Origin: Psychrobacter raelei
Lineage (GTDB): Bacteria; Pseudomonadota; Gammaproteobacteria; Pseudomonadales; Moraxellaceae
Length of the DNA stretch: 64,000 nucleotides
NCBI RefSeq assembly: GCF_022631235.3
Contig: NZ_CP093310.2
Location: 1,240,001-1,304,000 of the forward strand
Reading direction: 5' to 3'
Shown here: in pieces, positions 17,893 through 35,147 of the stretch
Numbering within the stretch: position 1 is the stretch's first letter
Layout of the letters: each line of letters begins with the position of its first letter
Translations under genes and position numbers: made by a program
Notes under the pieces: generated by a model
The model's database searches: none
What the model was told of the DNA's origin: nothing
The model's input: only the letters and a program-made list of their open reading frames with translations

Positions 17893-20754
17893 ATGCCCTC
17901 TGACCGTAGCCTCATTGACCAATTAACTCAAAACGTCCTTTCACTAAGCGCCCAGCACATAACCCAAGAGCACATTCAAGCACTTAAGATGGCCAGTCCT
18001 TTTGCTTATCAAATCTGGAAAAACAAGCCGGCTATTTGCCAAAACTTTTTGACCAGTTATCCTTTAGGTGAGCTGCTGACTCGCCAGCAAATCTGTGATT
18101 TGATTGATGATTACACCTTAGACGATGGGTTAGAGGGCGAGCTTAAGCGGGCCGATGAAGCCGGCGTCATGAAAGGTCTGCGCCGCTTGCGTGAGCTATT
18201 GATGCTGCGCTGGATTTGGCAGGACGCTTTGGGTCTCATTGCGCTTGAACAGCTGACCGGTGAGCTATCAGATTTTGCGGATAATTGTCTGATATTCGTT
18301 AAAGAGTATGTTTGGGAGCAATTGGTTGCGCGCTATGGCCGGCCCACATATATTGATGAAAAAGGGCAGCGTCAGTTCGATGACATGGCCATCTTTGCCA
18401 TGGGTAAGCTTGGGGCGCAAGAGCTGAATCTATCTAGTGATATCGACTTAATCTTCGTACACCGTGCCCGCGGTGAAACCGATGGTGATAAATCCAAAGG
18501 CACCAAAAGTATAGATAATAAGCGCTTTATGATTCGCTTGGGTCAAAGCATTATTAAGATCTTAGATACTTGCACGGCAGAAGGCTTCGTGTTTCGAGTC
18601 GATATGCGCCTACGCCCTTGGGGTGAGGGCAGTGACTTGGCCATTCACTTATCGGCTTTAGAGAAGTACTTTGCTGCTCATGGCCGCGCATGGGAGCGGT
18701 TTGCGTGGCTAAAAGCGCGGGTGATTAATGAGGTTGACGATAGGTTTAATAGTCAATTAGAGAGCATCATTAAGCCGTTTGTGTTTCGCTATTATGTCGA
18801 TTACAGTGCCTTTGCTGCACTGCGTGAAATGAAGTCTTTAATTCAAAATCAAGTGGCGCAGCGAGAGGACTTAGACAATGTTAAGCTCGGTGCCGGCGGC
18901 ATTCGAGACATAGAGTTTGTGGTACAGGCTTTCCAATTAATATATGGCGGTCGTCACAGTCAGCTTGAGGTCAAGTCCTGCCTCAAAGCGATGCAGGCTT
19001 TAAACGAATTTGATTTCATCGATGATGATACTTACCGCAACCTAGAGGCCGCTTATCGTTTTTTTCGCCGCGTTGAGCATGGTATTCAGGCCATTCATGA
19101 CCAGCAAACTCAAAAGCTGCCGCACAATCCAGAATGCCAGCACAATTTGGCGCTCACCTTAGGCTTTGATAATTGGGATGCTTTTTTACAGCGTCTAAAT
19201 GAGCATCGCCGCAATGTGCATCTCCCCTTTGATCGTATGGTGACTGAGCGCCAGACGCCTACCAATACCGCTGTTGCCTCCAGTGATGAGCTGCAAAGCT
19301 TAGATGAGGTGCTTAACGGGGATAACAAGGCCAAGCTTGAGCAGTTTTGGTCAAGCAAAATGGTGGCCAATCTATCTGAGGAGGCCAAACAGCGATTAGA
19401 TGCCGCTTATCCTGTATTGGTGCATGCGTTACTAATTCATGAAGCCAAGCAGGGCTTAGCCAATGTGGCATTACCCAGACTTATCGACTTATTAGAGGCC
19501 ATCTGTCGCCGCTCTATATATCTAGTGATGCTCGCTGAAAACCCAGATGCCACAGTTAATCTGATTCCCATGCTCTCGGCAAGCCCTTGGATTGCTGGCG
19601 AGTTGACCCGCTATCCGGTATTGCTTGATTCATTCTTACAGCAGCGCTACCGCCACCTGCCGGACAAAGAGGAGCTTGCCAATATCCTGCGTCAGCGCCT
19701 TTTGCGCGTTGAGCCTAATGATGAGGAGATGCTACTAAACGTGCTTAGATTGTTCAAAAACAATCAGGTGCTGGCTGTAGCCGCCAGTGATGTGCTGGCT
19801 GAACGCCCGATTATGAAGGTGTCTGACTCCTTGACTTATATTGCTGAGGTGGTGCTTGAATTTACCTTAGAGCGTGCCTTCTCAGAGCTGGTCAAGCGTC
19901 ATGGCTATCCGATCAATATGCAAGGCGAGTCAGTAACCGAAGCGCACAACGGCTTTGCGATTATTGGTTATGGCAAGCTTGGTGGGATAGAGATGTCGTA
20001 TACCTCAGATCTTGATTTGGTATTTATTCACCAGATTAATGAGCAAGCAATGACCACAGGGCTTAAACCGGTTAGCGGCATGAAGTTTACCGCGCGTTTG
20101 GCCCAGAAGCTGATGACCTATCTCAATACCCAAACCCGAGATGGGCGTGCTTATGAGATTGACATGCGACTGCGACCTTCGGGTAATGCTGGCATGATGG
20201 TAGTCTCAAGCCGCTCCTTTGAGCGCTATCAATTAGAAAAAGCTTGGGTCTGGGAGCATCAAGCCTTAGTACGGGCGCGCGCCATTTGTGGTGACAGTCG
20301 AGTGATACAGGCCTTTAATCATACTCGCAAACAGGTTCTCACGCGCAAATGTGATATTGCCGACTTAAAACAGCACGTGATTGAAATGCGCGGCAAAATG
20401 AAAGACCATTTGGGCAGCAATCCCTTAGCTCAGCAGCAAGGTGAGTTTCATTTAAAACAAGATGCAGGCGGTATTGTCGATATTGAGTTTATGGCGCAAT
20501 ATGGCGTATTGGCCCATGCCCATGACCACCCAGAGCTGGCGCAGTGGAGCGATAATGTCAGAATTTTTGAAAGCTTAGCGGCCGCTGGAGTGTGGGATGC
20601 TGAGACCTGTGAGGGACTTACTAAAGCCTATCTTCTACTGCGCGCCGCGATGCATCAGCTGGCGCTTGCTAACGAATCGGTGGTGGTAGATGCAGCGGTC
20701 TGGAATGAGACACGCGAGTATGTCATCTCTAAATGGAATGAGATAGTGGTGTAG
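17893..20754 (+). CDS. glnE: Bifunctional glutamine synthetase adenylyltransferase/removase
   Basis: GlnE adenylylates glutamine synthetase when nitrogen is plentiful and removes AMP by phosphorolysis when it is scarce, under PII control. The 953-residue protein (E. coli 946) holds two nucleotidyltransferase domains. The N-terminal de-adenylylase has AMGKLGAQELNLSSDIDL (about residues 170-190). The C-terminal adenylylase has GYGKLGGIEMSYTSDLDL (about residues 695-715). Each carries the G-x-x-D-x-D-type metal motif, and each is followed by an R-L-R-P box and a GGI(R/V)DIEF motif. It is monocistronic, with AAGGAG before the ATG. Confidence 0.96.
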   Translation: MPSDRSLIDQLTQNVLSLSAQHITQEHIQALKMASPFAYQIWKNKPAICQNFLTSYPLGELLTRQQICDLIDDYTLDDGLEGELKRADEAGVMKGLRRLRELLMLRWIWQDALGLIALEQLTGELSDFADNCLIFVKEYVWEQLVARYGRPTYIDEKGQRQFDDMAIFAMGKLGAQELNLSSDIDLIFVHRARGETDGDKSKGTKSIDNKRFMIRLGQSIIKILDTCTAEGFVFRVDMRLRPWGEGSDLAIHLSALEKYFAAHGRAWERFAWLKARVINEVDDRFNSQLESIIKPFVFRYYVDYSAFAALREMKSLIQNQVAQREDLDNVKLGAGGIRDIEFVVQAFQLIYGGRHSQLEVKSCLKAMQALNEFDFIDDDTYRNLEAAYRFFRRVEHGIQAIHDQQTQKLPHNPECQHNLALTLGFDNWDAFLQRLNEHRRNVHLPFDRMVTERQTPTNTAVASSDELQSLDEVLNGDNKAKLEQFWSSKMVANLSEEAKQRLDAAYPVLVHALLIHEAKQGLANVALPRLIDLLEAICRRSIYLVMLAENPDATVNLIPMLSASPWIAGELTRYPVLLDSFLQQRYRHLPDKEELANILRQRLLRVEPNDEEMLLNVLRLFKNNQVLAVAASDVLAERPIMKVSDSLTYIAEVVLEFTLERAFSELVKRHGYPINMQGESVTEAHNGFAIIGYGKLGGIEMSYTSDLDLVFIHQINEQAMTTGLKPVSGMKFTARLAQKLMTYLNTQTRDGRAYEIDMRLRPSGNAGMMVVSSRSFERYQLEKAWVWEHQALVRARAICGDSRVIQAFNHTRKQVLTRKCDIADLKQHVIEMRGKMKDHLGSNPLAQQQGEFHLKQDAGGIVDIEFMAQYGVLAHAHDHPELAQWSDNVRIFESLAAAGVWDAETCEGLTKAYLLLRAAMHQLALANESVVVDAAVWNETREYVISKWNEIVV

Positions 20755-20924
20755 CCTAGGACTCAATATAACCAAATCAAATGCGCTACAAAACTAAAAA
20801 TTGATAGTCAATTTAGGCCGCAGTGATATACTAAAATGATTGACCTCTCCTAAATATGCTGTTTATTATAAGGGGAGATCATGCAGGCTCGATTGACGAT
20901 TATTGGCGTAAAGGGAACAATATT

Positions 20925-21854
20925 ATGAGTATGGCAACAACGGAAGGCAAGCTTTGGCTAAACGGTGAAATGGTCAATCAGCCTGATGCCAAAGTGCATG
21001 TGTTAACGCACAGTTTGCATTATGGTATGGCAGTATTTGAAGGGGTGCGTGCTTATCAAACAGAAGATGGCCGTACTGCAATCTTTAGATTAGAAGATCA
21101 CACCGATCGCCTAATGGGCTCTGCCAAAATCTTTCAATTAAATGTCCCCTTTGATAAAGCCACTTTGAATCAAGCCCAAAAAGAGGTCGTTAAACAAAAT
21201 GGCTTTGAGTCGGCCTATATTCGTCCGCTTATCTGGGTGGGCGCTGAAAAACTAGGACTCTCCTCACGAGATAATAGTATCAATGCCATGGTTGCCGCTT
21301 GGAAATGGGGCGCTTATTTGGGTGAGGAGGGCATCCAAAAAGGAATCCGGGTTAAAACCTCATCCTACACCCACCATATGACCAACGTCACCATGTGTAA
21401 GGCCAAAGCAGCGAGCAACTATCCAGTGTCTATTATGGCCAACCAAGAGGTGACTCGCAACGGCTATGACGAAGCCATCTTGATGGACTCTCAAGGCTAT
21501 GTGTGCCAAGGTTCAGGCGAAAACTTATTTATGGTAAAAAATGGCGAGCTACATACGCCAGATTTGGCAGGTGGGGCATTAGATGGGATTACCCGCCGTA
21601 CGATGATTCAGTTCGCTGAGGATTTAGGCATTAAAGTGGTCGAACGCCGTATTACTCGCGATGAGTTTTATTTAGCCGATGAGGTGTTTATGACCGGTAC
21701 TGCCGCTGAAGTGACGCCCATCCGTGAATACGATGATCGCACCATTGGTAATGGCGGACGCGGTGACATCACACAGAAGCTGCAGAGCTTATATTTTGAT
21801 GTGGTACATGGCCGCAATGAGCAGTACATGGATTGGCTGAGCTTTGTTGATTAA
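20925..21854 (+). CDS. ilvE: Branched-chain amino acid aminotransferase
   Basis: PLP-dependent transaminase for the last step of valine, leucine and isoleucine synthesis. From the ATG at 20925 the protein has 309 residues, the usual IlvE size; the open frame begins at 20856, but the extra 23 residues are unlike the family. The fold-type IV signatures are THSLHYGMAVFEGVRAY, the PLP lysine in TMCKAKAASNYP, and YVCQGSGENLFMVKNG and the late DEVFMTGTAAEVTPI. AAGGGA sits 9 nt upstream. It is followed by a strong terminator, then the glycan locus. Confidence 0.95.
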   Translation: MSMATTEGKLWLNGEMVNQPDAKVHVLTHSLHYGMAVFEGVRAYQTEDGRTAIFRLEDHTDRLMGSAKIFQLNVPFDKATLNQAQKEVVKQNGFESAYIRPLIWVGAEKLGLSSRDNSINAMVAAWKWGAYLGEEGIQKGIRVKTSSYTHHMTNVTMCKAKAASNYPVSIMANQEVTRNGYDEAILMDSQGYVCQGSGENLFMVKNGELHTPDLAGGALDGITRRTMIQFAEDLGIKVVERRITRDEFYLADEVFMTGTAAEVTPIREYDDRTIGNGGRGDITQKLQSLYFDVVHGRNEQYMDWLSFVD

Positions 21855-21910
21855 TTAAGCGGTATAGCTGTTATGCTCTAAGCCCTTATTTTAGGGATGG
21901 CTTAAATATA

Positions 21911-21940
21911 AAAAAATCCGGACATGATGTTCGGATTTTT
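21911..21940 (+). terminator. Terminator after ilvE
   Basis: AAAAAATCCG pairs with CGGATTTTT around GACATGATGTT, and six or more T follow. It separates ilvE from galE. Confidence 0.85.
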
Positions 21941-22030
21941 TATATTTAAAATTAGTATATTAGATATGTAAGGTATAATTACTATAATTTTTTAAATATA
22001 GCTGCACAGAATAATATAAGAGTCAAAAAT

Positions 22031-23008
22031 ATGCTATTAATTACCGGTGGTCTTGGTTATATTGGCAGTCACTTTACTGTGATTGCTTTGCAGTCAGGTT
22101 ACGAGGTTATGGTACTGGATAATCTTTCAAACAGCCATGCCGGTGTGAAAGATAAAGTCGAGCAGATTACACAGAAAGAATTACATTTTATTGAAGGGGA
22201 TATCAGAGATGAGGGTTTACTTGATAGTATCTTTAAGCGGTTTACTATTGAAGCAGTAGTTCACTTTGCTGGTCTAAAAGCAGTGGCTGAGTCGGTTGCT
22301 AAGCCGATATTGTATTATGATAACAATGTCTCTGGAAGTTTGAATCTACTCAAAGCTATGCAGAACAATAAAGTTAATAAAATTATTTTCTCTTCCTCTG
22401 CTACGGTCTATGGGGAGCCTAAATATTTACCCTATGATGAGCGGCATCCTACCAATCCGATTAACCCCTATGGCTATACTAAGCTGCATGTAGAGCATGT
22501 TTTACGTGATGTATGTGCTAGCAATGAGGCTTTTTCAGCAATAACCCTGCGCTACTTCAATCCAATTGGCGCTCACCCGTCAGGATTGATTGGTGAGAAT
22601 CCAAAAGATATTCCAAATAACTTAATGCCATATATAATTAAGGTAGCTAATTCTGAGCTGCCTTATTTGCAAGTATTTGGTGATGACTACGAGACAAGAG
22701 ATGGTACTGGTGAGCGAGATTATATTAATGTGATGGATTTAGTGGAAGGACATTTGGCTGCCATCGAGTATTTAGCAAATACTGGATTTCATGTTTTTAA
22801 TTTAGGGACAGGTATGGGTACTACGGTACTTGAGCTGGTAAGTGCCTTTGAAGCTGCTAATGACATTTTGATAGAGAGAAAGATAAAGCCTAGACGAAAA
22901 GGGGATTTAGCTAAGTTTTGGGCAAAAGTAGATTTGGCTAAAAAGGAGTTAAACTGGGAAGCTAAAACCTCTTTGTTGGAAAGTTGTCAGTTGATTCGGC
23001 AGTTCTAA
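22031..23008 (+). CDS. galE: UDP-glucose 4-epimerase with a shortened C-terminus
   Basis: GalE interconverts UDP-glucose and UDP-galactose via an NAD-bound keto intermediate, supplying galactose for surface glycans. The Rossmann motif is TGGLGYIGSH (residues 5-14), the catalytic residues are SSSATVYG and the Y-x-x-x-K in YGYTKLHVEHV. The substrate segment LRYFNPIGAH and RDGTGERDYINV are intact. The protein is 325 residues rather than about 338: after KKELNWEAKTSLLESCQ the family tail (D.W.WQ..NP.GY) is replaced by LIRQF and a stop. Another frame at that point reads DSAVLTV, so a small indel in the last codons is likely. It may still fold. It stands at the left edge of the glycan locus, convergent with the split epimerase. 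Confidence 0.9.
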   Translation: MLLITGGLGYIGSHFTVIALQSGYEVMVLDNLSNSHAGVKDKVEQITQKELHFIEGDIRDEGLLDSIFKRFTIEAVVHFAGLKAVAESVAKPILYYDNNVSGSLNLLKAMQNNKVNKIIFSSSATVYGEPKYLPYDERHPTNPINPYGYTKLHVEHVLRDVCASNEAFSAITLRYFNPIGAHPSGLIGENPKDIPNNLMPYIIKVANSELPYLQVFGDDYETRDGTGERDYINVMDLVEGHLAAIEYLANTGFHVFNLGTGMGTTVLELVSAFEAANDILIERKIKPRRKGDLAKFWAKVDLAKKELNWEAKTSLLESCQLIRQF

Positions 23009-24030
23009 CGGTTTAAATAACAATAGAAGATATAAATGAAAATATTGTTTTCTTATCGATAAAAGAGCCTATCACCATGCTGTGGCTGGCTCTTTTAAAT
23101 ATGTGGAATAAATAAGTTATTTTTTAAAATAACCACGATACCAATTAGCGAAGTGTTTGATACCCTCAGCCAACTCTGTATTGGGGGTAAAGCCGGTTAA
23201 TTGGGTTAATGAGCTGGAGTCTGCGTAAGTCGAAGCCACATCACCAGGCTGCATATCCATCATAATCTTCTGTGCTTCTGTGCCAAATTCTGCCTCTAAT
23301 GTACGAATAAACGCCATCAAGTTTACCGGTGAGTTATTGCCAATATTATAGAGGCGATAAGGGGCAGAAGAGGTTTCTGGACTCGGATGTCGGGGGTCAA
23401 AGGTTGGTGCACCCACATCTTTGCTACCGGCCGGAGTATCTAAAATCGCCAAAATACCCTCGGCAATATCACCAACATAGGTAAAGTCGCGGCTCATATC
23501 ACCATGGTTGAATACTTTGATAGGGCGGTTATTAGAGATGGCATCAGCGAACAACATCGGCGCCATATCAGGGCGTCCCCAAGGACCATAAACGGTGAAA
23601 AATCTTAAACCAGTACAACGAATACCAAACAGATGCGCATAAGTGTGTGCCATCATCTCATTCGATTTTTTAGTAGCAGCGTATAATGAGACAGGATGAT
23701 CGGTATGATCGGATGTTTTAAATGGCTGAGATTGGTTAAGTCCATATACAGATGAGCTTGATGCAAAGCATAAGTTATCTACTTTTTGTTGGCGGCAGCC
23801 TTCTAGAATATTCAAAAACCCTACAATATTGGCTTCAACATATTGATGTGGATTCTCTAACGAGTAACGTACACCTGCCTGAGCCGCCAAATGACAGACA
23901 GCATCGAATTGATGCGTTTGAAATAATGACGCCATCGCCTCACGGTCTGCGATATCAATTTTGATAAATTCAAAATGCTTATTTTTAGTAGAATAAGTAG
24001 TATTGGTATCCGGCTCGTTAGGTAAAGTAA

Positions 24031-25153
24031 TACCAATTCTAAAAAATAACACTCAAATCGCACCACTCCCGCTGAGTGATAGACCTAATTAAGTTAGTCT
24101 CATTACACAATGCATTCCAAGCGTCACATGCCGCATCGACAATCACATCATAACTCTCAAAACAGCGATTAGATAACCAATGCTGTTTAAGGTACTGCCA
24201 TACCTGTTCAGCAGGGTTAAGTTCAGGTGAGTAGGGAGGCAATTTAAGCATGGTCACATTATCTTTATCCAAGCTTGGTTGGTGCCATAGCGCCCCATCC
24301 ATAACCACCACGGCATGCCGACCTTCAGGAACAGCTTTACTAATTTCCTCCATATGCAATCCCATGGCTTGCTTATTCACATAAGGTAGAACAAGTCCAA
24401 CACTCTCACCTGTCGCCGGATTAAAGGCACCAAACAGATAAGTCGATTCAAACTGCTGTTGCCTGACTATTCGAGGTCTTTGTCCTTTATAGTGCCAAAC
24501 CCTTGTGATAGAACCTTGTTGTCCAATACGTGTTTCATCCTGAAACCATATATCAACTTGCTTGATATCAACACCATCAGGTAGAACTTGCTTTACCTGC
24601 TCAAGGAAGTTTTTTTATATGCCTCCATAACTTTAGGATCTGCCTTAGGATGCTGACTACGCGCAGATATCCAGCTCATACCAATACGTTTCATGAGAGG
24701 GTAGATCGCTTTAGGGGTATAGTTGGCGTTAAATTGCTCCTTGGCGATTTGTGCGATGTCTTTTGCGGTGAGCCTACCACCACCTCTTTGCTGCTGAGCT
24801 TCTACTATCGCTTGTTTGAATGGTTCTATGTCTTTTTCTGCTAAAAGACTCTTTCTGCCTCTGCCAGCTGCGTCATAGACACTAGTGATACCATGCAACC
24901 AGTATTTCCTTCTTATGGTATAGACGCTTCTAGGGTTATAGCCAAAGTTCTCTGCGACGGTCGCTATAGGATGACCTTGACTCAGTTGATGCAGCATGAG
25001 TAGTCTGATTCGCGCTCTGGCCTTGCCTTCTGTTTTAGACAATTGCAGAAAATCGTGGTCTGTGAGTTTATGATTTCTAGGGGTCTTTTTCGGCATATGA
25101 TTCTATTATGTTGTTGAGTTGGTTGTATTGTACCTTATTTCTTAGAATTGGTA
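24031..25153 (-). mobile_element. IS630-family insertion sequence, 1123 bp
   Basis: The element has terminal inverted repeats of 20 bp with 18 matches: TACCAATTCTAAAAAATAAC at the left and TACCAATTCTAAGAAATAAG read inward from the right. It is flanked by TAA on both sides (24028-24030 and 25154-25156), compatible with the TA duplication of IS630/Tc1-mariner elements plus one chance base. Its single gene, on the minus strand, is a DDE transposase in two overlapping frames. It lies inside a nucleotide-sugar epimerase gene, and precise removal restores that gene's frame. Confidence 0.92.
24039..25096 (-). CDS. IS630-family DDE transposase in two frames (orfAB)
   Basis: orfA (25096-24593, 167 residues) carries helix-turn-helix segments ([38 protein letters not shown]) and a linker. 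In orfB the catalytic triad is complete: Asp in WFQDETRIG, Asp in VVMDGALWH and Glu in [13 protein letters not shown]. orfA ends shortly after a run of seven A at about 24611-24617 (coding strand TATAAAAAAAC). Stepping back one base there continues as [10 protein letters not shown] straight into orfB, which is open to 24039. The A-run is suitable for programmed -1 frameshifting or transcript slippage, as known in several IS630 members; a simple inactivating indel is the alternative. The stop codon lies inside the left inverted repeat. Confidence 0.85.
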
Positions 25154-25376
25154 TAACCCCAAGCTGTTTTAATCTGGCATGCTTTAATGAGACGTCATAG
25201 TAATCATTAAGGTTGTCGATACCGACAACCTGTTCACCACGTTCAAGTAGTTTCTGGCAGACATGAAAGCCGATAAATCCTGCTGCGCCCGTTACTAGTA
25301 TTTTCATGCACTTGTTTCCACTAATTTTTATTTGATTTTGAAACTTGAGCTAGTTGCTGTTTTAAAATTTCAGGTA

Positions 25377-26402
25377 TCAAGTATTTTGTAATAAAAACTC
25401 ATAATATGAACCAGGTTTAAAATCTTTAACATAGGACATTTTATGAATGCTCGACTGAGAGATAATTTTCTGATAATCAGCTTCATTATAAGGAGTATGA
25501 AGAGCTGCCACTAACAAGTGTGGTTTAGTGTCATCAACTATAGGACATTGGTGTGGAGCAAGTTTGTCTTTTATTAGTGTATCAAACAAAATCTGGAAGA
25601 AAAAATAATGAGGTATATATTCTTGGGTTTGCCAGAAGTTTAATATTAAGTCGAGACAAGTATGAATAACCGGATCATTTTTTTTGGCAAAAATAATACT
25701 ATTTAACAGGTTTACCTTATGAGAGCTTTCCCAGCTAAAGTAATAACTATTAAACTTATGCCATTGTTGTTTGTTTTCTGCATCAGCCGCACGTTGATAC
25801 ATAAAAAATCCATTATCTTGTAAGACATTAGGCAAAGAGTCTGTCAAATAAATAGTCGCATCCAACCACACACCACCGTAGACATCAAGCAGAGCAAGAC
25901 GCAGCAAGTCTGCAAAGAAAGCAGGTCTAAATCCAGGATAGGTTTTTTTATGCCAAACAAAATCAGGCAAGTCTAGGTATTCATGGATATTGCTATCATC
26001 AAGTCTAATCACTTTATAGTCGGCAGCATGTTTGTCTACCGACTTAAAATAGAGCTGCACTGAGGGAGGCAGCTGATTATCAGAAACACCTTGCCCCCAA
26101 TATTGCCAAATGATTTTTTCATTTTGAAATTCTTTTTTAGGCTTTAATGAGAACTTTTGGAGCTGACCACTATAGTAACGCTTAATGAACTCTGCCCAGC
26201 ACTTCGCTACTTGATTTTGCTGCTCAAGATCAGCTTCTTTTTCAAAAGCTTTACGTTTATTGTGTGGTGTTGTTAGATTGTAGAAGTAACGGTAAGGTTT
26301 TTTCTTCTTTTCTTTAAGCTGCTTGTAAGTCTCACTGTCTGAAAAGAAGTGAGGAGATATACTGTTTGGCTCGAAACTTGAGTTTTCTGCGACGTTTGGC
26401 AT
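25377..26402 (-). CDS. Capsular-polysaccharide-synthesis-type glycosyltransferase
   Basis: The protein matches the Caps_synth family of GT-A-like sugar transferases. It has KIIWQYWGQGVSDNQLPPSV, then RPAFFADLLRLALLDVYGGVWLDATIYLTDSLP, in which LRLALLDVYGG and the D-x-[TA] of WLDAT form the nucleotide-sugar/metal site. The frame is open up to 26573, but the upstream gene ends at 26332. The ATG at 26402 (MPNVAENSSF) is the most sensible start and still overlaps that gene by 71 bp. About 80 N-terminal residues are polar and Lys-rich, with no homology I recognise. Sugar specificity is unknown. AT-rich codon use differs from the flanking core genes. Confidence 0.8.
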   Translation of the reverse strand: MPNVAENSSFEPNSISPHFFSDSETYKQLKEKKKKPYRYFYNLTTPHNKRKAFEKEADLEQQNQVAKCWAEFIKRYYSGQLQKFSLKPKKEFQNEKIIWQYWGQGVSDNQLPPSVQLYFKSVDKHAADYKVIRLDDSNIHEYLDLPDFVWHKKTYPGFRPAFFADLLRLALLDVYGGVWLDATIYLTDSLPNVLQDNGFFMYQRAADAENKQQWHKFNSYYFSWESSHKVNLLNSIIFAKKNDPVIHTCLDLILNFWQTQEYIPHYFFFQILFDTLIKDKLAPHQCPIVDDTKPHLLVAALHTPYNEADYQKIISQSSIHKMSYVKDFKPGSYYEFLLQNT

Positions 26403-27216
26403 TCTTTTTATTCCATTCAGCTTCAGTGATTTTTTTATCAGTCTCATTTCTAAGGTAGGCATGCCCACCAAAACGATAATGTGACTTGTCAGAGAACATA
26501 AGCTTAGACGTTTTTTTCCAGTATTCACGCTCGCCACGTGTGAAATACGGAGGTAAAATTTTAATGTCTTCACGCCCTAAGGCAAACTTATTAAGATGGC
26601 TCTCATCATGCCAAAGAGCAATAATATCCTGTTTTAAATCAGACTGGGTGTTATTGTATAAAGTATGGCATAGATCCAAGAAAGCCTCACTTTTGCCACC
26701 ATTTAGAGCACCTGTGAAATAATACTTACCTTCACCATACGCAATATAGGCTGTTGATTTCGGATTGCGATCATATGTGTATTTTTCTCTATTACGATGG
26801 AACATATGCGGTTGCAGACATAGTGTTAAGTTTTCATGTGAGCCCAACGGAAGTAGGTCGTACTGCGTAATAGTTGATAAAAACTCTGTATTGGCATTAA
26901 AGAAAAAGACAAAGTCATGTTGTTTAATGATATTTTCAGCATCCAAGAAGAATCTAAAGCGCATTAAGGTACAAAATGGCCATTCCATTGCTTCCTTTTT
27001 AAGCGCAATTACTTGGTCACTTTGTGTTTTAAATGAGTCAATCAGATCATCGCTATCGGTAAATAGGATATAGTGCTTGTCGCAATCAGGAAGCAAATAC
27101 TTTTCTGCCGATTTATAAAAATGATCCCAAAAAATAGTATAGCGACCGGTTGCAATGTACAGTATGGCAACCGAGTGTTTAGAGTTATTCGATAAAATGG
27201 AGTGTGTTGGGCTCAT
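26332..27216 (-). CDS. Family GT6 glycosyltransferase (blood-group A/B transferase-like)
   Basis: This 294-residue enzyme belongs to family GT6, the retaining alpha-1,3-Gal/GalNAc transferases that include the human ABO enzymes. Matching stretches are HYILFTDSDD, the RNPKSTAYIAYGEGKYYFTGALNGG block (the vertebrate version being R.PQSQAYIP..EGDFYY.GG..GG), and LWHDESHLNKFAL at about 202-212. The metal-binding D-x-D of animal enzymes is N-A-N here (residues 107-109, FFFNANTEF), the N-x-N form typical of bacterial GT6 enzymes. There is no transmembrane anchor. I use ATG 27216; a TTG 7 codons earlier is in frame. Predicted role: adding alpha-Gal or alpha-GalNAc to LOS or capsule. Confidence 0.88.
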   Translation of the reverse strand: MSPTHSILSNNSKHSVAILYIATGRYTIFWDHFYKSAEKYLLPDCDKHYILFTDSDDLIDSFKTQSDQVIALKKEAMEWPFCTLMRFRFFLDAENIIKQHDFVFFFNANTEFLSTITQYDLLPLGSHENLTLCLQPHMFHRNREKYTYDRNPKSTAYIAYGEGKYYFTGALNGGKSEAFLDLCHTLYNNTQSDLKQDIIALWHDESHLNKFALGREDIKILPPYFTRGEREYWKKTSKLMFSDKSHYRFGGHAYLRNETDKKITEAEWNKKNAKRRRKLKFRAKQYISSLLFRQ

Positions 27217-27277
27217 ATTGGACTCGGTAAATTTCAATAGAACTTGCTGATCAATTTAATAGATAGTTAAGATAATA

Positions 27278-28042
27278 TTATTTAAAAGGCACTTCTTTAG
27301 CAAAAAGTGTCTTTTTAGCTTGAGTGAGCAGTCGGCTAGCTTCCTTATTAACTTTGGCGAGTCCTTTTTTCTTCTCTGCTCTCATACGGTCCTTACGCTC
27401 TTTTAGTAGGGCACTAGGCAAAGAAGGATTGTTTTTGTGCAAAATCATCTCTTGAATACACAAAGCGGGAACCAGTTGTTGTATAGGCTCAGAGCCTTGG
27501 CGAATAAAGTTGTCAAACATCATGATATCTAAAGGCACTAAAACCTGGCTTTTTATGTAATCTAAATAAATTATAGCCCCTTTTTTAGATAAGATATAAC
27601 CAGCAGTCCCTAGGTTCTTACCTTTTAGCTGGGTGACGTGACGCTTATTAGCTAGGACCTCATACGTTTTGCTGCCCAAATAAGTTTTTTTAGCGAAAGC
27701 TTCGATTTTTATGATATGCCAATCAGGATGAATCCAATCTGTGCTATTGAGTAGATTTCCCGCATCTTCCCCCAAATAAACATCGTCTTCGAAGATGGCG
27801 ACATAATCAAGCTGCTCTGCAATGATTTTCTCCCATACTGCAACATGGCTCATCATACATGCCAGCTCAGTAGGGGTTAAATCTGAGGTATCCTCTAAGT
27901 TTAGACTCTTAGCGTATTGAGCTGCTTGCTCAGGTCTTAGAGCGTCAAAAAACTCATAGCTAAGCTGATGTTTACCAAATTCATTTTCGATGTGTTGACG
28001 TCTTTTATTGGCAGAATCTAAGCTAATAATAATATTCTTCAT
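27278..28042 (-). CDS. GT25-family LOS glycosyltransferase
   Basis: Family GT25 (LgtB/LpsA type) transferase, usually adding galactose to lipooligosaccharide at the inner face of the inner membrane. The sequence starts MKNIIISLDSANKRRQHIEN, with the typical R-R/K..H motif. It then has ALRPEQ, LTPTELACMMSHVAVWEKI and the acidic YVAIFEDDVYLG, followed by GTAGYILSKKGA. ATG 28042 matches the family N-terminus; the frame continues to a GTG at 28066. It is about 254 residues. A second GT25 gene follows upstream. The C-terminus is very basic (KERKDRMRAEKKKGLAKVN), suiting membrane association. Confidence 0.88.
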   Translation of the reverse strand: MKNIIISLDSANKRRQHIENEFGKHQLSYEFFDALRPEQAAQYAKSLNLEDTSDLTPTELACMMSHVAVWEKIIAEQLDYVAIFEDDVYLGEDAGNLLNSTDWIHPDWHIIKIEAFAKKTYLGSKTYEVLANKRHVTQLKGKNLGTAGYILSKKGAIIYLDYIKSQVLVPLDIMMFDNFIRQGSEPIQQLVPALCIQEMILHKNNPSLPSALLKERKDRMRAEKKKGLAKVNKEASRLLTQAKKTLFAKEVPFK

Positions 28043-28109
28043 AACTGTTTTATCCATATAAAGCACTGGTATTTGGGCTAAACCAGATTTTGAGTAGTTT
28101 TTAATACAG

Positions 28110-28874
28110 TTATTTATTCAAATAAAGATGCTTAACAGCCGCCGCTTTGTCTTGTAGCATTCTTTTTTGTTTTTTGAGATTATAGCTGCCATCTCGGCCT
28201 TCTTTATCTTTACGCTGAATATTTTGACTGGACTGAGTGCCTAAAATATCACTATCGATCCCCATAGGGCTAATCACGGCGGGCCAAACACCTAGACCTT
28301 TGCCATTTTGACTGAGCCATCTTTGAAAGAAAATATCGACTGGCATCGTAATGGGCTTGCCATGCTTAATAAATTCTTCGGCGCCTTTACGTGACCAAAT
28401 CAGCCCAAGACCCCTAATAGGAAAATAATAGGCGTGCCAAAGCGTATGTTCATTGATGGTTGTGATATCTTTGGCCAGTTTCTTTTTTTTGGCAGCAATA
28501 TTGACCAAATACCAGTCAAGCTCTGGATGCGCATACAAATACGATACGGCCTCTTTGACTACCGGCGCAAATGCACTGGACATCTTCATATCATCTTCTA
28601 AAACTATCAGCATATCCGCATCGGTCTCAAGAAACTTCTGGGCGCACTGATAGTGACTCAGATAACAGCCGATTTCTGAGTTTAAAAGGCTGCGGCCTAA
28701 GTTACTGCGCGTTTGTTCGTCATCATAATCGACAAACTCAGACAATGATTTACCACGCCCATCATACGCTGATATTCTTTCAAAGTCCCAGTTCTGCTGC
28801 TGTAGCTGCTCGGTAGAGCGCTCGAGTCGTTTGTCACTGCCATCTAAGTTGATTAAGTAAGTTAATACTTTCAT
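28110..28874 (-). CDS. GT25-family LOS glycosyltransferase
   Basis: A second GT25 enzyme of 254 residues. It opens MKVLTYLINLDGSDKRLERS, with ISAYDGRG, LLNSEIGCYLSHYQCAQKFL and the acidic MLIVLEDDMKM, then LGLIWSRKGAEEFIKHG. Those elements correspond one by one to its neighbour, though the two are well diverged, so they probably attach successive sugars. The C-terminus is also basic. It lies 67 bp upstream of the other GT25 gene and 30 bp downstream of the Stealth-type gene, all on the minus strand, consistent with a single operon. Confidence 0.88.
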   Translation of the reverse strand: MKVLTYLINLDGSDKRLERSTEQLQQQNWDFERISAYDGRGKSLSEFVDYDDEQTRSNLGRSLLNSEIGCYLSHYQCAQKFLETDADMLIVLEDDMKMSSAFAPVVKEAVSYLYAHPELDWYLVNIAAKKKKLAKDITTINEHTLWHAYYFPIRGLGLIWSRKGAEEFIKHGKPITMPVDIFFQRWLSQNGKGLGVWPAVISPMGIDSDILGTQSSQNIQRKDKEGRDGSYNLKKQKRMLQDKAAAVKHLYLNK

Positions 28875-28904
28875 AAGAGGTATCTTGTCCTTAGTGTGTG
28901 ATAG

Positions 28905-29915
28905 TCAGCCTTGCGCAGTCAATAGTGACTGCGGCAGGTAGGACTGAAGCTTGGTAAACATGGCCTCAGTAACTTGAGCGAATTCTTTAGCGGGCAGTTG
29001 ATCCATACTTTGTATGCAGCCATATTTGATATTAGAATCTTGCAAACCTTTAATAAACTGCTGCACACTGCGTTCATCTTTTAGATAATTGATGTCAATA
29101 TCAGGCTTTAAGATGACCTGATTTTGCTTGATTTTCAAGTGATTCATCAATGATATGGGATTAAACTGCTCCACATCACGAAATTTATACTCGATTTGTT
29201 TAGCCAGTAGCGTAGGCTTGCTTAATAAGAAATTTCGCAAAATATTTTTATCAACAATATGCGGATAATGATGTATTTCAAAAAACTTGCTCATCCCCGC
29301 CAGTTGTGCCCCCAGCATTTGAGCAATAGTATGCTTAGGCTGCACCGGCTTACCCACTAGCTTTTGTAATGTCTTGCGGTAATCAAGCTTAGCCTTCAGT
29401 GGCAGGCTGCTACGCCAGTGGCCATACACTACCATCTTATTATCAGTCAAAAAATCTTCAATCTGGGCTGGTTGATTAAAAAAGAAGTCATCATTTAAGT
29501 AGATAAAATAATCAGACAGACCTGGTATATTGCACAGCATGGTCTCAATCGAGCGGGTATTAAAGGTTGGCAGATACTGCTCGTAGCCTGCGAAGATTTG
29601 CTTGTGGTCAATAATGCGAATTTTGTCTTGGGTACAGACACCTTGTGCCGCAAACTCTTCGATAAATTTAGGCTGCTGCTCATCAGAGACGATATAGATA
29701 TAGCGACAAAAGGGCACGTATTTTAAAATAGAGGCCACGTTAAAATAGATTTCATTGTTACTGGCAAAGCGAGTGGCACTAATCGCATCAGAGGCCACTT
29801 GAGTGGTTTTTTGATACGACTGGCGCTTTTGCTTGAGCTTCGGGTCATCACCGTCCACCCAGGCGATAACTAAGTCTATTTCAGATGGGGATTGTAGGCT
29901 CACAAGGGCTCTCAC
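28905..29915 (-). CDS. Stealth-family sugar-phosphate transferase
   Basis: Stealth proteins transfer hexose-1-phosphate from a nucleotide sugar to build phosphodiester-linked capsule or LOS chains, and are related to GlcNAc-1-phosphotransferase. The conserved regions appear in order: CR1 IDLVIAWVDGDDPKLKQKR (about 14-32); CR2 RFASNNEIYFNVASILKYVP then YIYIVSDEQQPKF; CR3 LPTFNTRSIETMLCNIPGLS with YFIYLNDDFFF; and CR4-like HYPHIVDKNILRNF. The first codon is GTG (29915), with another GTG four codons on, and no strong ribosome site at either. It is 336 residues, within family range. It implies phosphodiester linkages in the cell's surface glycan. Confidence 0.85.
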   Translation of the reverse strand: MRALVSLQSPSEIDLVIAWVDGDDPKLKQKRQSYQKTTQVASDAISATRFASNNEIYFNVASILKYVPFCRYIYIVSDEQQPKFIEEFAAQGVCTQDKIRIIDHKQIFAGYEQYLPTFNTRSIETMLCNIPGLSDYFIYLNDDFFFNQPAQIEDFLTDNKMVVYGHWRSSLPLKAKLDYRKTLQKLVGKPVQPKHTIAQMLGAQLAGMSKFFEIHHYPHIVDKNILRNFLLSKPTLLAKQIEYKFRDVEQFNPISLMNHLKIKQNQVILKPDIDINYLKDERSVQQFIKGLQDSNIKYGCIQSMDQLPAKEFAQVTEAMFTKLQSYLPQSLLTAQG

Positions 29916-29981
29916 TATGTCATGGTAATATAAGTATCTGGGTAGATAGCTCTTTAGTTATCTGCTACCGAGTCGATGTTT

Positions 29982-30770
29982 TTATTTCCAGTAATCCTTA
30001 AGCCAAGGGCTTGGCTTCACATGGCGATACCATTTACCGCCACCACCTTTAATCGCATCAGGCGGATTAATCTCACCATGAAAGATAATAATTTTAGCGT
30101 TATCAGGTAAGCTTGGCGCTTTAATAAAACTCATAGCAGGAGAGGGCATACATTGGTATTTAAAGCTTACGCACCAAGTTTTATCCCAGTACTCTAAGTG
30201 GTGATGCTTACGCAAATAATTAGATAAATAAGCCTGCTCATGACGTACCTCTTTGCTTATCTTGGCAAAGTTTTTCTCGAAGTAACTGAGCAGATTGGGA
30301 TAGGTGTTTTGACCAATTTTAAAGCGGTACACTGAGCTGTTGCCCACCATGCGCCAAGGCTTTTTCCAGTCACGGATGATGACCACGCTGTCATCAAACT
30401 TGGCTTCGTATTCAAAAAAAGCATCGATATTATCAACAATAACAATATCAATATCCAAAAATAGCGCAGTACCTTTTAAGTCATATAATTCAGGCTTAAA
30501 GGTGGTTAGCTTCTTCCAGCCACGTTCAGGCAGGCCCTCAGGTAGATTGAGCTCAGGAATAGGGTAGCAGCGCACATTGGGGTCAATACCCGTCTCATCA
30601 TCGGTAAGGCATACCATCTGAAAATCTAATGTCAGATGACGCTTGACCATATTGTATAGACGGTTGACATACTCAGGGCCATATTTGGTGCCCCATTTCA
30701 TACAGATCACATAGCGGGCCTCACTATTTGAAGAAGGCGTAAGGCGTGAGTCAGATTGGGTAGTTGTCAT
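29982..30770 (-). CDS. Probable DxD glycosyltransferase of the glycan locus
   Basis: The 262-residue protein looks like a GT-A fold transferase. The start YVICMKWGTKYGPEYVNRLY is followed by FQMVCLTDDETGID and the metal-binding ALFLDIDIVIVDNIDAFF. Then come WKKPWRMVGNSSVYRF and a C-terminal HGEINPPDAI, a His-Gly pair like those contacting the donor in GT8-type enzymes. I cannot assign a known activity. It lies between the lpxL-like gene and the Stealth gene on the same strand, so a surface glycan role is inferred from place. Confidence 0.75.
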   Translation of the reverse strand: MTTTQSDSRLTPSSNSEARYVICMKWGTKYGPEYVNRLYNMVKRHLTLDFQMVCLTDDETGIDPNVRCYPIPELNLPEGLPERGWKKLTTFKPELYDLKGTALFLDIDIVIVDNIDAFFEYEAKFDDSVVIIRDWKKPWRMVGNSSVYRFKIGQNTYPNLLSYFEKNFAKISKEVRHEQAYLSNYLRKHHHLEYWDKTWCVSFKYQCMPSPAMSFIKAPSLPDNAKIIIFHGEINPPDAIKGGGGKWYRHVKPSPWLKDYWK

Positions 30771-30815
30771 GAGTTACTCGGGCCAAATAGGTGGGTTTAG
30801 GAGTCAGTAAAATGC

Positions 30816-31823
30816 TTATTTGTCTAATGAGCGCTCTAATGTGCGAGCGGGTGAATCCTCTAATGCTTCATTTTGCTGAGCATTTTGGGTCAATAACTTA
30901 GGTTTAACATAAGCGCCAATAAACTGCTTTAGCTGATCCGTACTGGCTTTGTAAGGATTGTTGATTAAGGGAATTTGTTTGAAGCGTCGATAGCTCCACA
31001 TATAGTGATCAGGGAAGCGCTTGATCATGTCCTCCATCGCTTTGTTTAAAGCGCTGGTAGCAACTACAATGTCCTTATCAAATAGCTTAGGGTCATCTAA
31101 GGCGAAGCAGTGGACATCAAAGCCGCTTTTTAAGGGTGAGTCATTGTCACTGCGTACACAGACCAGTCCTACCAATGAGCACTTGGTCTTGCTGGCAAGC
31201 TTGGGTGCAAGCGTACTGGTTAATGTTTCAATACCAAAAAATGGTGCTTGAACACCGCCTGAGGGCTGAGGCACATGGTCGGGGAGGATGATACTAAAGC
31301 CGCCAGATTTTAAGGTCTTAAAAATGGCCTTTATACCAGAGGCGTCAGTGGGGACCATCTGTGAGTTAAGGCGTTGGCGGCCTTGCAGAATAAAGTCATT
31401 TTGAAGTCGGTTTTTGACCGGTTTATATAAGATAGTAGGTGAGCCAAATTGATTCAGCCAGGCATTCATAATCTCCCACGTACCCAAATGCGGGACAATG
31501 GCAAGCATCCCCTTAGGATCTTTTAAGGCAGCCTCAAGTATCTGCAGATTATATACTTTATTGACTTGGTTGATGCTCCAAGCAGGCGGCATCGCCCAGC
31601 TTTTCACTGATTCAACCGTGCTTAAGAGTTGATTGCGAATAATTTGTTCTGAAAGTTGCTCACGAGCTTCATGGTCAAGCTCAGGTGTTGCCAATTGCAG
31701 ATTGATATCAATGCTGCGTTTGATCGAGGTGTTAGGAATTTTATTCACGATGGGAGTGACGAAAAGTGCCACTGCCCGCATAGCGGACAATGGCACAAAT
31801 TTGACGGCATTTAATGGGTTCAT
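30816..31823 (-). CDS. LpxL/HtrB-family acyltransferase
   Basis: A lysophospholipid-acyltransferase-fold enzyme of the LpxL/LpxM class, which adds secondary acyl chains to lipid A at the inner membrane. The catalytic H-x4-E is in IVPHLGTWEIMNAW, followed by PTILYKPVKN and LPDHVPQPSGGVQAPFFG, and late YMWSYRRFK. The N-terminal hydrophobic stretch near MRAVALFVTPIV would anchor it. I start at ATG 31823; a TTG five codons earlier is in frame. About 335 residues. Location beside LOS transferases supports a lipid A role, but which LpxL paralogue it is cannot be told. Confidence 0.85.
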   Translation of the reverse strand: MNPLNAVKFVPLSAMRAVALFVTPIVNKIPNTSIKRSIDINLQLATPELDHEAREQLSEQIIRNQLLSTVESVKSWAMPPAWSINQVNKVYNLQILEAALKDPKGMLAIVPHLGTWEIMNAWLNQFGSPTILYKPVKNRLQNDFILQGRQRLNSQMVPTDASGIKAIFKTLKSGGFSIILPDHVPQPSGGVQAPFFGIETLTSTLAPKLASKTKCSLVGLVCVRSDNDSPLKSGFDVHCFALDDPKLFDKDIVVATSALNKAMEDMIKRFPDHYMWSYRRFKQIPLINNPYKASTDQLKQFIGAYVKPKLLTQNAQQNEALEDSPARTLERSLDK

Positions 31824-31930
31824 AGACTTAACTCGCAATAAGGGGTAATTATCTAAGCTATTGAATAACCACCGCTTTGCCAGCTAAGTGTGCTGCTGGT
31901 GGGGGCTAGCCCCACAAGCGGTTAGCTAAA

Positions 31931-33736
31931 TTACTCTTTGTTTTCAGCTTGCGCTTTTTCGCGCACACGAATGCCCAGCTCACGCAGCTGACGGCTGTCG
32001 ACTTCTGCAGGGGCCTGAGTTAATGGGCAGTCTGCAGTTTTGGTTTTCGGGAATGCAATCACGTCACGAATAGAGCTTGCGCCCACCATAAGCATAATCA
32101 GACGGTCCAAACCGAAGGCTAAGCCGCCATGCGGAGGCGCACCGAATTTTAAAGCGTCTAGTAAGAAGCTAAACTTCTCGTTGGCCTCTTCTTCTGAGAT
32201 ACCTAAGGCATCAAATACTGCACGCTGCATCTCAACTGTGTTAATACGTAAGCTACCACCGCCAATCTCAGTACCGTTTAGTACCATATCATAGGCGATA
32301 GATAGGGCTGTTTCTGGGTTGTTTTTTAGCTCTTCAACTGAGCCTTTTGGCATGGTGAAGGGGTGGTGCATTGAGGTCCACTTACCATCATCGGTCTCCT
32401 CGAACATTGGGAAGTCGACGACCCATAGCGGGGCCCACTCACAAGTTTCGATGTTCATATCTAGACCGATTTTGACACGTAGCGCACCCATAGCATCATT
32501 CACAATCTTGGCTTTATCTGCACCAAAGAAAATGATGTCGCCATCTTGTGCGCCTGTGCGCTCAATTAAGCTTACCAACACCTCATCGCTCATGTTTTTG
32601 ATGATAGGCGATTGTAGGCCAGACTCTTTGTCGACACCATTGTTGATGTTGCTGGCATCGTTAACTTTGATATATGCCAGACCACGCGCCCCATAGATGC
32701 CGACGTATTTGGTGTATTCATCGATTTGCTTACGGGTTAGTGAGCCACCATTTGGCACACGTAAGGCGGCCACACGACCTTTAGGATCGTTAGCAGGGCC
32801 TGCAAACACTTTAAAATCAACCGACTGCATCAAGTCTGCGACGTCGATTAGTTTTAATGGGATACGTAAATCAGGCTTATCAGAGGCATAGTCACGCATG
32901 GCTTCAGCGTAGGTCATACGTGGGAACTTACCTAAGTCCACATCTAGCATGGTCTTAAATAGGTTTTGGATCAAGCCTTCGTTGATGTCCATGATGTCTT
33001 CTTCAGACAAGAAAGACGTCTCGATATCCACCTGAGTGAATTCTGGCTGACGGTCGGCACGTAAGTCTTCATCACGGAAACACTTGGCGATTTGATAATA
33101 ACGATCAAAGCCTGCCACCATTAATAACTGTTTGAACAGCTGTGGCGACTGAGGCAAAGCAAAGAAGTTACCTGGACGGGTACGTGATGGCACAAGATAG
33201 TCACGTGCACCCTCTGGTGTGGCACGAGTCAAAATTGGGGTTTCAACGTCTAAGAAACCTTGGTCATCTAAATAACGACGGATGGTAGAGGTGGCTTTGG
33301 CACGAAATACCATACGCTCTTGCATCTCTGGACGACGCATGTCTAAATAGCGGTATTTTAGGCGCAAATCTTCTGATACAGAGATATTCTCGTCATTTAA
33401 TGGAAATGGCGGTGTTTCAGATTTGGCCAATACGACAATTTCTTTGGCCAACAGCTCAACGTTACCACTGGTCATATTCGCGTTTTCGGTACCTTCATAG
33501 CGCTTGCGCACACGACCTGTAATCTTTAATACATACTCAGAACGTGCAGCATCAGCGGTTGCAAAAGCTTCTGGCGTATCGGGGTCAACGACAACCTGCA
33601 AGATACCCGCGCGATCACGCATATCTAAAAAGATAACCCCACCATGGTCACGGCGACGATGAATCCAGCCTGTTATAGTGATGGTTTGCTCTAGTAACGC
33701 TTCGGTTACGGCCCCACAATACTCGGTACGCATCAT
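31931..33736 (-). CDS. aspS: Aspartyl-tRNA synthetase
   Basis: Class II synthetase charging tRNA-Asp, bacterial type with a GAD insertion domain. The 601-residue sequence has an N-terminal OB-fold anticodon-binding domain ([22 protein letters not shown]), motif 1 ([23 protein letters not shown]), motif 2 ([20 protein letters not shown]) and motif 3 ([14 protein letters not shown]). Start is MMRTEYCG; two adjacent ATGs are possible, and the first has GGA 6 nt upstream. It marks the return to core genome at the right of the glycan locus. A tRNA-Asp gene lies about 9.4 kb away. Confidence 0.97.
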
Positions 33737-33978
33737 AAATTGTCCACTACCTATCAGTTATCAAAAAAGAATTCTTATAAATTCAAGAAGGTTCTGTCAA
33801 AGAATTTTTATCAAACGCACATTATGCCTAATCTTGCGTGTTGATACAACCAAACACCCTTGAAATTATTGAAATGCAAACGCATATTAATAACAATATG
33901 ATAAAAAATTATTTGTGCTAGAGCGTTATTATATCCCATCTAGTTTTCGATATGTTTTATACCCTTAAAGGAATATTT

Positions 33979-34977
33979 ATGTTGTTTTATCCGGCCAAAA
34001 ACCCAGTTGAGTTAAAAGTAGTTCATTTAAATAAAAGTCAAAACGAGCGTCGCAAGCATCTTATTGAAGCGACAGGGGACAAAAATGCGGTAAAACAATT
34101 CCAAAAAGCACTGGCCAAAAAAGCCAAGCAAAAACTAAAAGATAAGTCTAAAGCGAAAGCCAAGCAAAAGCGTGTATTTGTGCTTGATTTTGATGGTGAT
34201 ATTAAAGCCAGTGCTGTTAAGCACTTGCGCGAGGAGATTAGCACCATCATCAGCGGCGCCAATAAGGGTGATGAGGTGGTCATTCGTCTAGAGTCAGGCG
34301 GCGGCATGGTACATAGCTATGGCTTGGCCGCAGCTCAATTGGTGCGCCTCAAAGACGCCGGCTTAACGCTCACCATTGCCGTGGATAAAATCGCTGCCAG
34401 CGGGGGTTACATGATGGCCTGTGTGGCAGATAAAATTTTAGCAGCCCCGTTTGCCGTTATCGGCTCAATTGGTGTGGTCTCACAAATGCCAAACTTTAAT
34501 AAATGGCTAAAAAAACACGATATCGATTATGAAATGTTTACCGCAGGTGAGTACAAGCGTACGGTGACTGTTTTTGGTGAGAATGATGATGACGATCGTG
34601 CCAAATACACTGAGGAGCTAGAGCAAACACATAAGCTATTTAAGCACTTTGTGACCACCTATCGCCCGCAGCTGGACTTAACCAAAGTGGCCAATGGCGA
34701 TCACTGGTATGGTGAGGATGCGCTGCATTTAAACCTGGTCGATGAGCTGACGACCTCGGATGCATATTTGCTAAAGCAAATGGATGAGCATCAAGTGTAT
34801 GCCATTTTATCACGCCAAAAACCCACTTTGGCTGAGAAGTTGGGTTTTGCTAACGCCGCTCATTCGGCGGTATCAGGCTTGGTAAGCACCGCAACCAAGT
34901 CAGCGTTGACTGTGCTGGGTAATAAATTGCCTGAGGTCATGAGCAAGATTGAGCAAGACAAGCGTTTAAAGTTTTAA
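33979..34977 (+). CDS. sohB: SohB-type S49 peptidase without the usual membrane anchor
   Basis: SohB/SppA-like serine protease. The Ser-Lys dyad is visible: Ser141 in IAASGGYMMACVADK and Lys193 in AGEYKRTVTVFGEN. Around it are LDFDGDIKASAVKHLREEI, RLESGGGMVHSYGLAAAQL and SIGVVSQMPNFN, nearly as in E. coli SohB. The E. coli protein begins with a long membrane helix; this one (MLFYPAKNPVELKVVHLNKS) has only a short start and then a lysine-rich coil, so it should be soluble or peripheral. ATG 33979 is preferred because AAAGGAAT lies in front; an ATG nine codons earlier is in frame. A perfect-palindrome terminator follows. Confidence 0.9.
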   Translation: MLFYPAKNPVELKVVHLNKSQNERRKHLIEATGDKNAVKQFQKALAKKAKQKLKDKSKAKAKQKRVFVLDFDGDIKASAVKHLREEISTIISGANKGDEVVIRLESGGGMVHSYGLAAAQLVRLKDAGLTLTIAVDKIAASGGYMMACVADKILAAPFAVIGSIGVVSQMPNFNKWLKKHDIDYEMFTAGEYKRTVTVFGENDDDDRAKYTEELEQTHKLFKHFVTTYRPQLDLTKVANGDHWYGEDALHLNLVDELTTSDAYLLKQMDEHQVYAILSRQKPTLAEKLGFANAAHSAVSGLVSTATKSALTVLGNKLPEVMSKIEQDKRLKF

Positions 34978-35011
34978 TGGTTGGATAAACTATCAGCTAC
35001 TTGATGTGAAG

Positions 35012-35039
35012 AAAAAGCGACCTTAAGGTCGCTTTTTTT
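35012..35039 (+). terminator. Terminator after sohB
   Basis: AAAAAGCGACCT and AGGTCGCTTTTTTT form a perfect inverted repeat with a short TA centre. It stands 34 bp past the sohB stop and could work in both directions. Confidence 0.88.
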
Positions 35040-35147
35040 GATGGATTTATCTTGCAATAAGCTGAATGATAAGGATTGAGTTTAATCAGCAAAAACCAAT
35101 CGTTAAGACCAGTAATCAAAGATAAATTAACCAAGGATAGGTGTTCA

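Follow-up and report, generated by a model that had tools for sequence, protein, structure and literature searches.

We report a GT6 glycosyltransferase gene of Psychrobacter raelei whose product is probably a retaining, metal-independent enzyme that would add a terminal alpha-1,3-Gal (less likely GalNAc) to an unfucosylated beta-Gal of the LOS outer core; the beta-Gal would be made by a GT25 enzyme (GT25a) encoded directly upstream, and the GT6 gene would form a movable pair with an overlapping Caps_synth gene. It lies in a stretch of 64,000 nucleotides (contig NZ_CP093310.2, positions 1,240,001 to 1,304,000), here called the window, from whose first letter its features are counted. A preliminary description of the window had proposed a blood-group-A/B-like GT6 transferase in a LOS locus. 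We infer the activity, donor, acceptor, linkage and expression of the enzyme from its sequence and surroundings.

Gene and protein family

The GT6 open reading frame occupies positions 26332..27216 of the minus strand, with its ATG at 27216 and the end of its stop codon at 26332, and encodes 294 aa; it was identified by profile and PDB matches, and its motifs were placed by alignment. The protein scored 107.8 bits against the Pfam profile PF03414 (cut-off 25), and its top PDB match was BoGT6a (4ayj; E 3.2e-47); the best 60 of 72 PDB matches also include chains of ABO and alpha-1,3-galactosyltransferase, with E values from 4.6e-23 to 1e-20. The profile check suggested in the preliminary description therefore places the protein inside GT6, and its membership is borne out far beyond chance. 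Against the NCBIfam profile NF041524 (Gltr_6 subfamily) the protein aligned over the full profile length (2-226 of 226) and scored 244.3, missing the cut-off of 250 by 6 bits. The predicted fold is the GT6 variant of GT-A, and the profile search found one GT6 match only in the whole genome.

Both sequence blocks quoted in the preliminary description, DRNPKSTAYIAYGEGKYYF and WHDESHLNK, are present, and the alignment confirmed that N107-A-N109 stands at the position of the ABO D-V-D motif. The mammalian ABO and alpha-1,3-galactosyltransferase enzymes thus have DxD where the window protein has NxN, which is NAN or NGN in 16/16 Moraxellaceae GT6 proteins. The catalytic E205 (in WHDE) and K244, equivalent to E192 and K231 of BoGT6a, are invariant among 32 sequences. 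BoGT6a of Bacteroides ovatus (PDB 4ayj, 4cj8) differs in its acceptor loop (HPGFYN; Q135-P-H-M-F-H140 in the window protein) and donor triad (AGG; T168-G169-A170), whereas the window protein has an extra basic C-terminal tail and its genome has no GT11 match.

The locus

Upstream of the GT6 gene and on the same minus strand lie aspS (31931..33736), which forms one locus border, a lipid A acyltransferase gene (30816..31838; PF03279, by profile and gene order) at the aspS-side border of the OC-type locus, a conserved gene (29982..30770), a gene for a Stealth-type protein (28905..29915; Stealth_CR1, CR2) and two GT25 glycosyltransferase genes, GT25b (28110..28874) and GT25a (27278..28066), the last three assigned by profile match. 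The protein encoded at 29982..30770 is 77-78% identical in nine other GT6-bearing Psychrobacter and had no match in the Pfam or NCBIfam profiles; a role in the LOS core is only guessed. Downstream of the GT6 gene follow the Caps_synth / Gly_transf_sug glycosyltransferase gene (25377..26402, minus strand; PF05704 and PF04488 by profile), whose frame, if the ATG at 26402 is its start, shares about 70 nt with the GT6 3' end, then an epimerase gene broken by an insertion element, and beyond it, on the plus strand, galE (22031..23008; TIGR01179, 392.7 bits, cut-off 262.3), the likely source of UDP-Gal, and an ilvE-like aminotransferase gene (20856..21854) at the opposite border. The two border genes were named from conserved order, and we take them to be aspS and ilvE. 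The placement in a LOS locus holds, with both GT25 genes and the Stealth-type, Caps_synth, lipid A acyltransferase and aspS genes all on one strand.

The insertion element (24027-25157), presumably IS630-like, has 23-nt inverted ends (24027-24049 and 25135-25157) and HTH domains recognized by profile; the gene that it splits encodes an NAD-dependent epimerase and lies where the LOS locus ends, with its remainder on both flanks. Such damage next door could mean that the GT6 gene is itself decaying and has lost its function, a reading that we consider very improbable, as the GT6 frame is intact, every compared active-site residue is kept, and relatives share both the start and the overlapping neighbour. 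An Rfam scan of 20000-36000 gave nothing over the gathering score; promoter-like sites were not commoner than in shuffled sequences, and terminator-like sites were rarer. Many other Psychrobacter carry a YrbL-family (PF10707) gene at the distal locus end (e.g., L019:11016-11648, L146:10557-11183); none was seen among the open reading frames of the window at the corresponding place.

Glycosyltransferase genes between ilvE and aspS mark the locus as OC-type, and in 14 of the 15 relatives with an intact GT6 that were compared (9 Psychrobacter, 6 Acinetobacter) both border genes are present, the examined stretch of the 15th ending short of aspS. Elsewhere in the same genome there is a capsule-type locus (C1:320000-340000), where TviB scored over the cut-off, TviC-like under it, and where we recognized by eye what we take to be flippase and export genes. 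Such a locus, together with Stealth and Caps_synth domains that are named after capsule proteins, might suggest that the GT6 enzyme serves capsule or another glycan rather than LOS. We regard this as quite improbable in view of the colinearity of the GT6 gene with the lipid A acyltransferase and GT25 genes in the ilvE-aspS interval and of the listing of the same two domains for A. baumannii OC genes (PMC10327509, in part). The OC genes of that species are likewise located between ilvE and aspS (PMC4172580, in part), and its OC loci resemble the P. raelei locus in this position and in their GT25, Stealth-type and Caps_synth genes; they differ in that a table of 57 OC genes, which gives at most two families per protein, is without PF03414 in the cited part of PMC10327509. 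The Stealth-type protein of the window is similar in domains to the Stealth_CR1/CR2 protein GtrOC7, which the same partial source material lists for Acinetobacter OC loci. For the OC loci of A. variabilis, the portion consulted of PMC12904642 does not use the term GT6. Searches of the open-licence literature listed no paper that deals with GT6 in the OC loci of Psychrobacter or Acinetobacter. A Psychrobacter GT6 is reportedly included in a JBC minireview of 2010 by Brew and co-workers; GT6 in this genus has thus probably been listed elsewhere and is not claimed here as new, the new part being the picture of Moraxellaceae GT6 as an OC-locus subfamily.

In Psychrobacter arcticus 273-4, of the same genus, the LOS core contains beta-Gal, linked to O-4 of beta-Glc, but O-3 of this Gal bears alpha-Rha (PMC4515632, in part). 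The GT6 enzyme would use this same O-3 position; its occupation by rhamnose in P. arcticus is a point against the main reading. A genome that we take to be P. arcticus (G005) has GT25a and rml-type genes and no GT6. In the P. raelei locus, the candidate maker of the beta-Gal acceptor is GT25a, encoded directly upstream; the GT6 enzyme would then cap the beta-Gal with alpha-1,3-Gal, so that the chain might terminate in, for example, Gal-alpha-1,3-Gal-beta-1,4-Glc, and the Caps_synth enzyme may lengthen this chain or add a branch to it. The GT6 and overlapping Caps_synth genes would act as a movable pair within the variable part of a Moraxellaceae OC-type locus.

The acceptor

The acceptor loop reads QPHxFH in all 16 intact Moraxellaceae GT6 proteins, compared with HPGFY in BoGT6a and HPSFY in ABO. 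Among 23 other bacterial GT6 proteins the Q column holds His in 21, Phe in one and Ser in one, and the H column never holds His. The window protein, with QPH, thus lacks the H-P-G/S loop of the BoGT6a and ABO type. Its Gln at the position of ABO His233 recalls Gln247 of alpha-1,3-GalT, and the bulky residue after it recalls Trp249; a literature search for the acceptor residues of alpha-1,3-GalT found no fitting paper.

The fucosyltransferase family GT11 was found in 0/16 Moraxellaceae genomes with GT6 and in 19/23 other GT6 genomes (Fisher p 1.5e-7, uncorrected for kinship), in a search that carried a positive control. Of 30 non-Moraxellaceae loci, the survey covered 23; the others were L067, L069, which shares its genome with L053, and L047, L049, L058, L072 and L073, whose frames are broken or were badly extracted. 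On the GT6 locus stretch itself, GT11 was present in 14/23 of the non-Moraxellaceae, a count that excludes the coordinates of L046, L051 (one of two) and L054, which belong to other contigs and have stop-filled frames. The genome of P. raelei gave no sign that the cell itself makes a fucosylated acceptor, as an H-antigen-dependent A/B synthase would need: genome-wide, there was no GT11 match (positive-controlled search), no GT10 match (search without a positive control) and no gmd over the cut-off (57 vs 415 bits). The earlier remark that no fucosyltransferase is seen nearby now extends to the whole genome for both GT11 and GT10.

The absence of GT11 from all 16 genomes and the distinct QPHxFH loop point to an unfucosylated beta-Gal as the most likely acceptor of the Moraxellaceae GT6 enzymes, a subfamily that, on the simplest reading, has lost its need for a fucosylated acceptor, although lineage rather than enzyme specificity could be the cause of the GT11 contrast. 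A true blood-group A/B synthase acting on a fucosylated (H-type) acceptor would suit the family and the GT11 genes that stand beside GT6 in 14/23 other bacterial loci, in one case fused to it; given the loop that differs in 16/16 Moraxellaceae proteins and a genome with neither GT11 nor GT10 matches nor gmd over the cut-off, it is extremely improbable here. Of the label "blood-group-A/B-like", the family part stands; the product is probably not an A or B antigen but nearer to alpha-Gal or linear B, since both the acceptor loop and the lack of a fucose pathway speak for unfucosylated beta-Gal.

The fusion is found in a Planctomycetota MAG (L065:9992-11626), where a single protein matches GT6 (122.9 bits) and then GT11 (140.3 bits), apparently joining in one chain the two transferases of a blood-group-like cap. 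In Synechococcus phage ACG-2014f (L145:1-2223) an annotated GT11 lies two genes ahead of the annotated GT6, which has D-A-D in place of N-x-N.

The donor

The positions of ABO 266-268 are T-G-A in the window protein, and Ala at ABO 268 is the Gal-type state. The mapping is gapless and was confirmed by the BoGT6a columns (A-G-G) and the ABO columns (M-G-A). The 16 Moraxellaceae proteins comprise 12 with TGA, three with AGG (all in other Psychrobacter) and one with MGG, while TGA occurs in 0/23 other bacterial GT6 proteins; AGG is the state of BoGT6a. Among mammalian enzymes, AlaGlyGly and LeuGlyGly are A-specific, MetGlyAla is B-specific, GlyGlyAla enzymes use GalNAc or both donors, and ThrGlyAla is absent from the cited part of the source (PMC6351642). 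On these specificities, UDP-Gal is the better guess for the donor of the window enzyme, although the GlyGlyAla enzymes mean that Ala at ABO 268 does not prove Gal.

The same enzyme might instead use UDP-GalNAc and cap the LOS with alpha-1,3-GalNAc, in the manner of the A or Forssman antigens. BoGT6a, the closest characterized enzyme, uses UDP-GalNAc (PMC3961637, in part), GlyGlyAla at the same positions can give GalNAc or mixed specificity in mammalian enzymes (PMC6351642, in part), and a TviC/WbpP-like epimerase encoded elsewhere in the genome could supply UDP-GalNAc. With galE at the locus border as well, both donors may exist in the cell; the TGA triad, which differs from AGG of BoGT6a, and the position of galE argue for Gal, and we hold a GalNAc donor to be rather unlikely. 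With Gal as the preferred donor of the window enzyme, the AGG strains may add GalNAc, so that TGA and AGG in Psychrobacter represent a possible A/B-like polymorphism. A wider, tentative picture, which we would put forward only as a conjecture, is an ABO-like polymorphism on Moraxellaceae LOS: natural alleles of one outer-core gene would add alpha-Gal (TGA) or alpha-GalNAc (AGG) to unfucosylated beta-Gal, and recombination between strains would exchange the catalytic core within fixed gene ends, switching the terminal sugar and leaving the rest of the locus unchanged.

Distribution and exchange

GT6 scored over the cut-off in 10/105 Psychrobacter genomes and in 16/348 Moraxellaceae genomes (2/16 genera), in agreement with the patchiness stated earlier. 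A GT6 remnant in Psychrobacter G078 (19.4 bits, below the cut-off; six stops; no ilvE or aspS on the stretch) was not counted. The Caps_synth gene is at least 59% identical in exactly the 10 GT6-bearing genomes of the 105; for the other full-length matches the identity is 41-45%, and for short pieces it goes up to 58%, over 38 residues. The GT6 and Caps_synth frames overlap in 9/9 other GT6-bearing Psychrobacter (101 or 140 nt, with mechanically assigned starts) and in 3/6 Acinetobacter. GT25a matches occur in 47/105 Psychrobacter genomes, several of them without GT6, so that the GT6/Caps_synth pair resembles an optional module at the end of a chain that GT25 makes more widely. In G020, which has no GT6, GT25a is split into two adjacent open frames (L156:9025-9797).

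Psychrobacter UBA3480 and JCM 18900 are 99% identical in the glnE and ilvE proteins and only 75% in GT6. At the DNA level, their GT6 genes are 67% identical in codons 41-205, compared with 95% before and 90% after, and third positions range from 0.30 to 0.70 across most of the core; this divergence exceeds what protein selection alone would be expected to give and agrees with an imported, divergent core. In GT6 the AGG clade is 63-64% identical to the TGA clade (93% in glnE, 96% in ilvE), no closer than either is to the far more distant window protein (66-67%). Topology conflict was rejected as support for the mosaic, since trees of the core and the ends do not conflict, UBA3480 and JCM 18900 grouping in both without starred support; the mosaic claim therefore rests on the identity step and the saturated third positions. 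In Psychrobacter sp. Pi2-1 and JCM 18900 (L019, L020) the GT6 DNA is identical and the other locus genes are a few percent apart.

On a housekeeping tree of 27 rows, in which the GT6-free Psychrobacter had been picked for GT25a (a biased sample) and seven rows hold one third of the columns, GT6 presence needs at least six changes, four of them forced by well-supported branches. The GT6 tree, whose bootstrap is unsettled and from which rows L025, L047, L049, L058, L067, L072, L073 and L078 were left out, places the Psychrobacter sequences together (100/99) within a Moraxellaceae clade that includes Acinetobacter (100/99). The closest non-Moraxellaceae GT6 found has 48.9% identity across 74% of the query. 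Since the Psychrobacter sequences fall inside the family clade, exchange appears to run within Moraxellaceae, with no sign of a recent far donor. Transfer, which had been suggested as likely, is thus upheld as exchange between strains, by the identity step and the mosaic core, and not as import from afar. The AT-rich codons that had been read as its sign carry no weight for an import of GT6 alone, because the GC3 of GT6 (0.37) is matched by that of four neighbours (0.33-0.37), the outer flanking genes having 0.47-0.52. The closest outside match (L144:5609-6439, MT838506.1) is on a 7.7-kb contig of human faecal origin that is labelled 'Bacteriophage sp.' and carries no annotation, and GT6-like matches were present in 71 phage records.

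Implications

The likely function is better defined than at first reading, as the capping of unfucosylated LOS galactose with alpha-1,3-Gal(NAc) by a distinct Moraxellaceae subfamily. If this is true, the enzymes would offer metal-free synthesis of linear B or alpha-Gal type glycans, the bacteria might be an environmental source of the alpha-Gal that elicits anti-Gal antibody in humans, and the alleles would form a natural series outside vertebrates for examining how two or three residues set donor choice. The majority of the bacterial GT6 examined accompany a fucosyltransferase, as expected of blood-group-like caps; the Moraxellaceae set suggests a second use of the family, in which alpha-Gal or alpha-GalNAc caps would be placed directly on LOS galactose.
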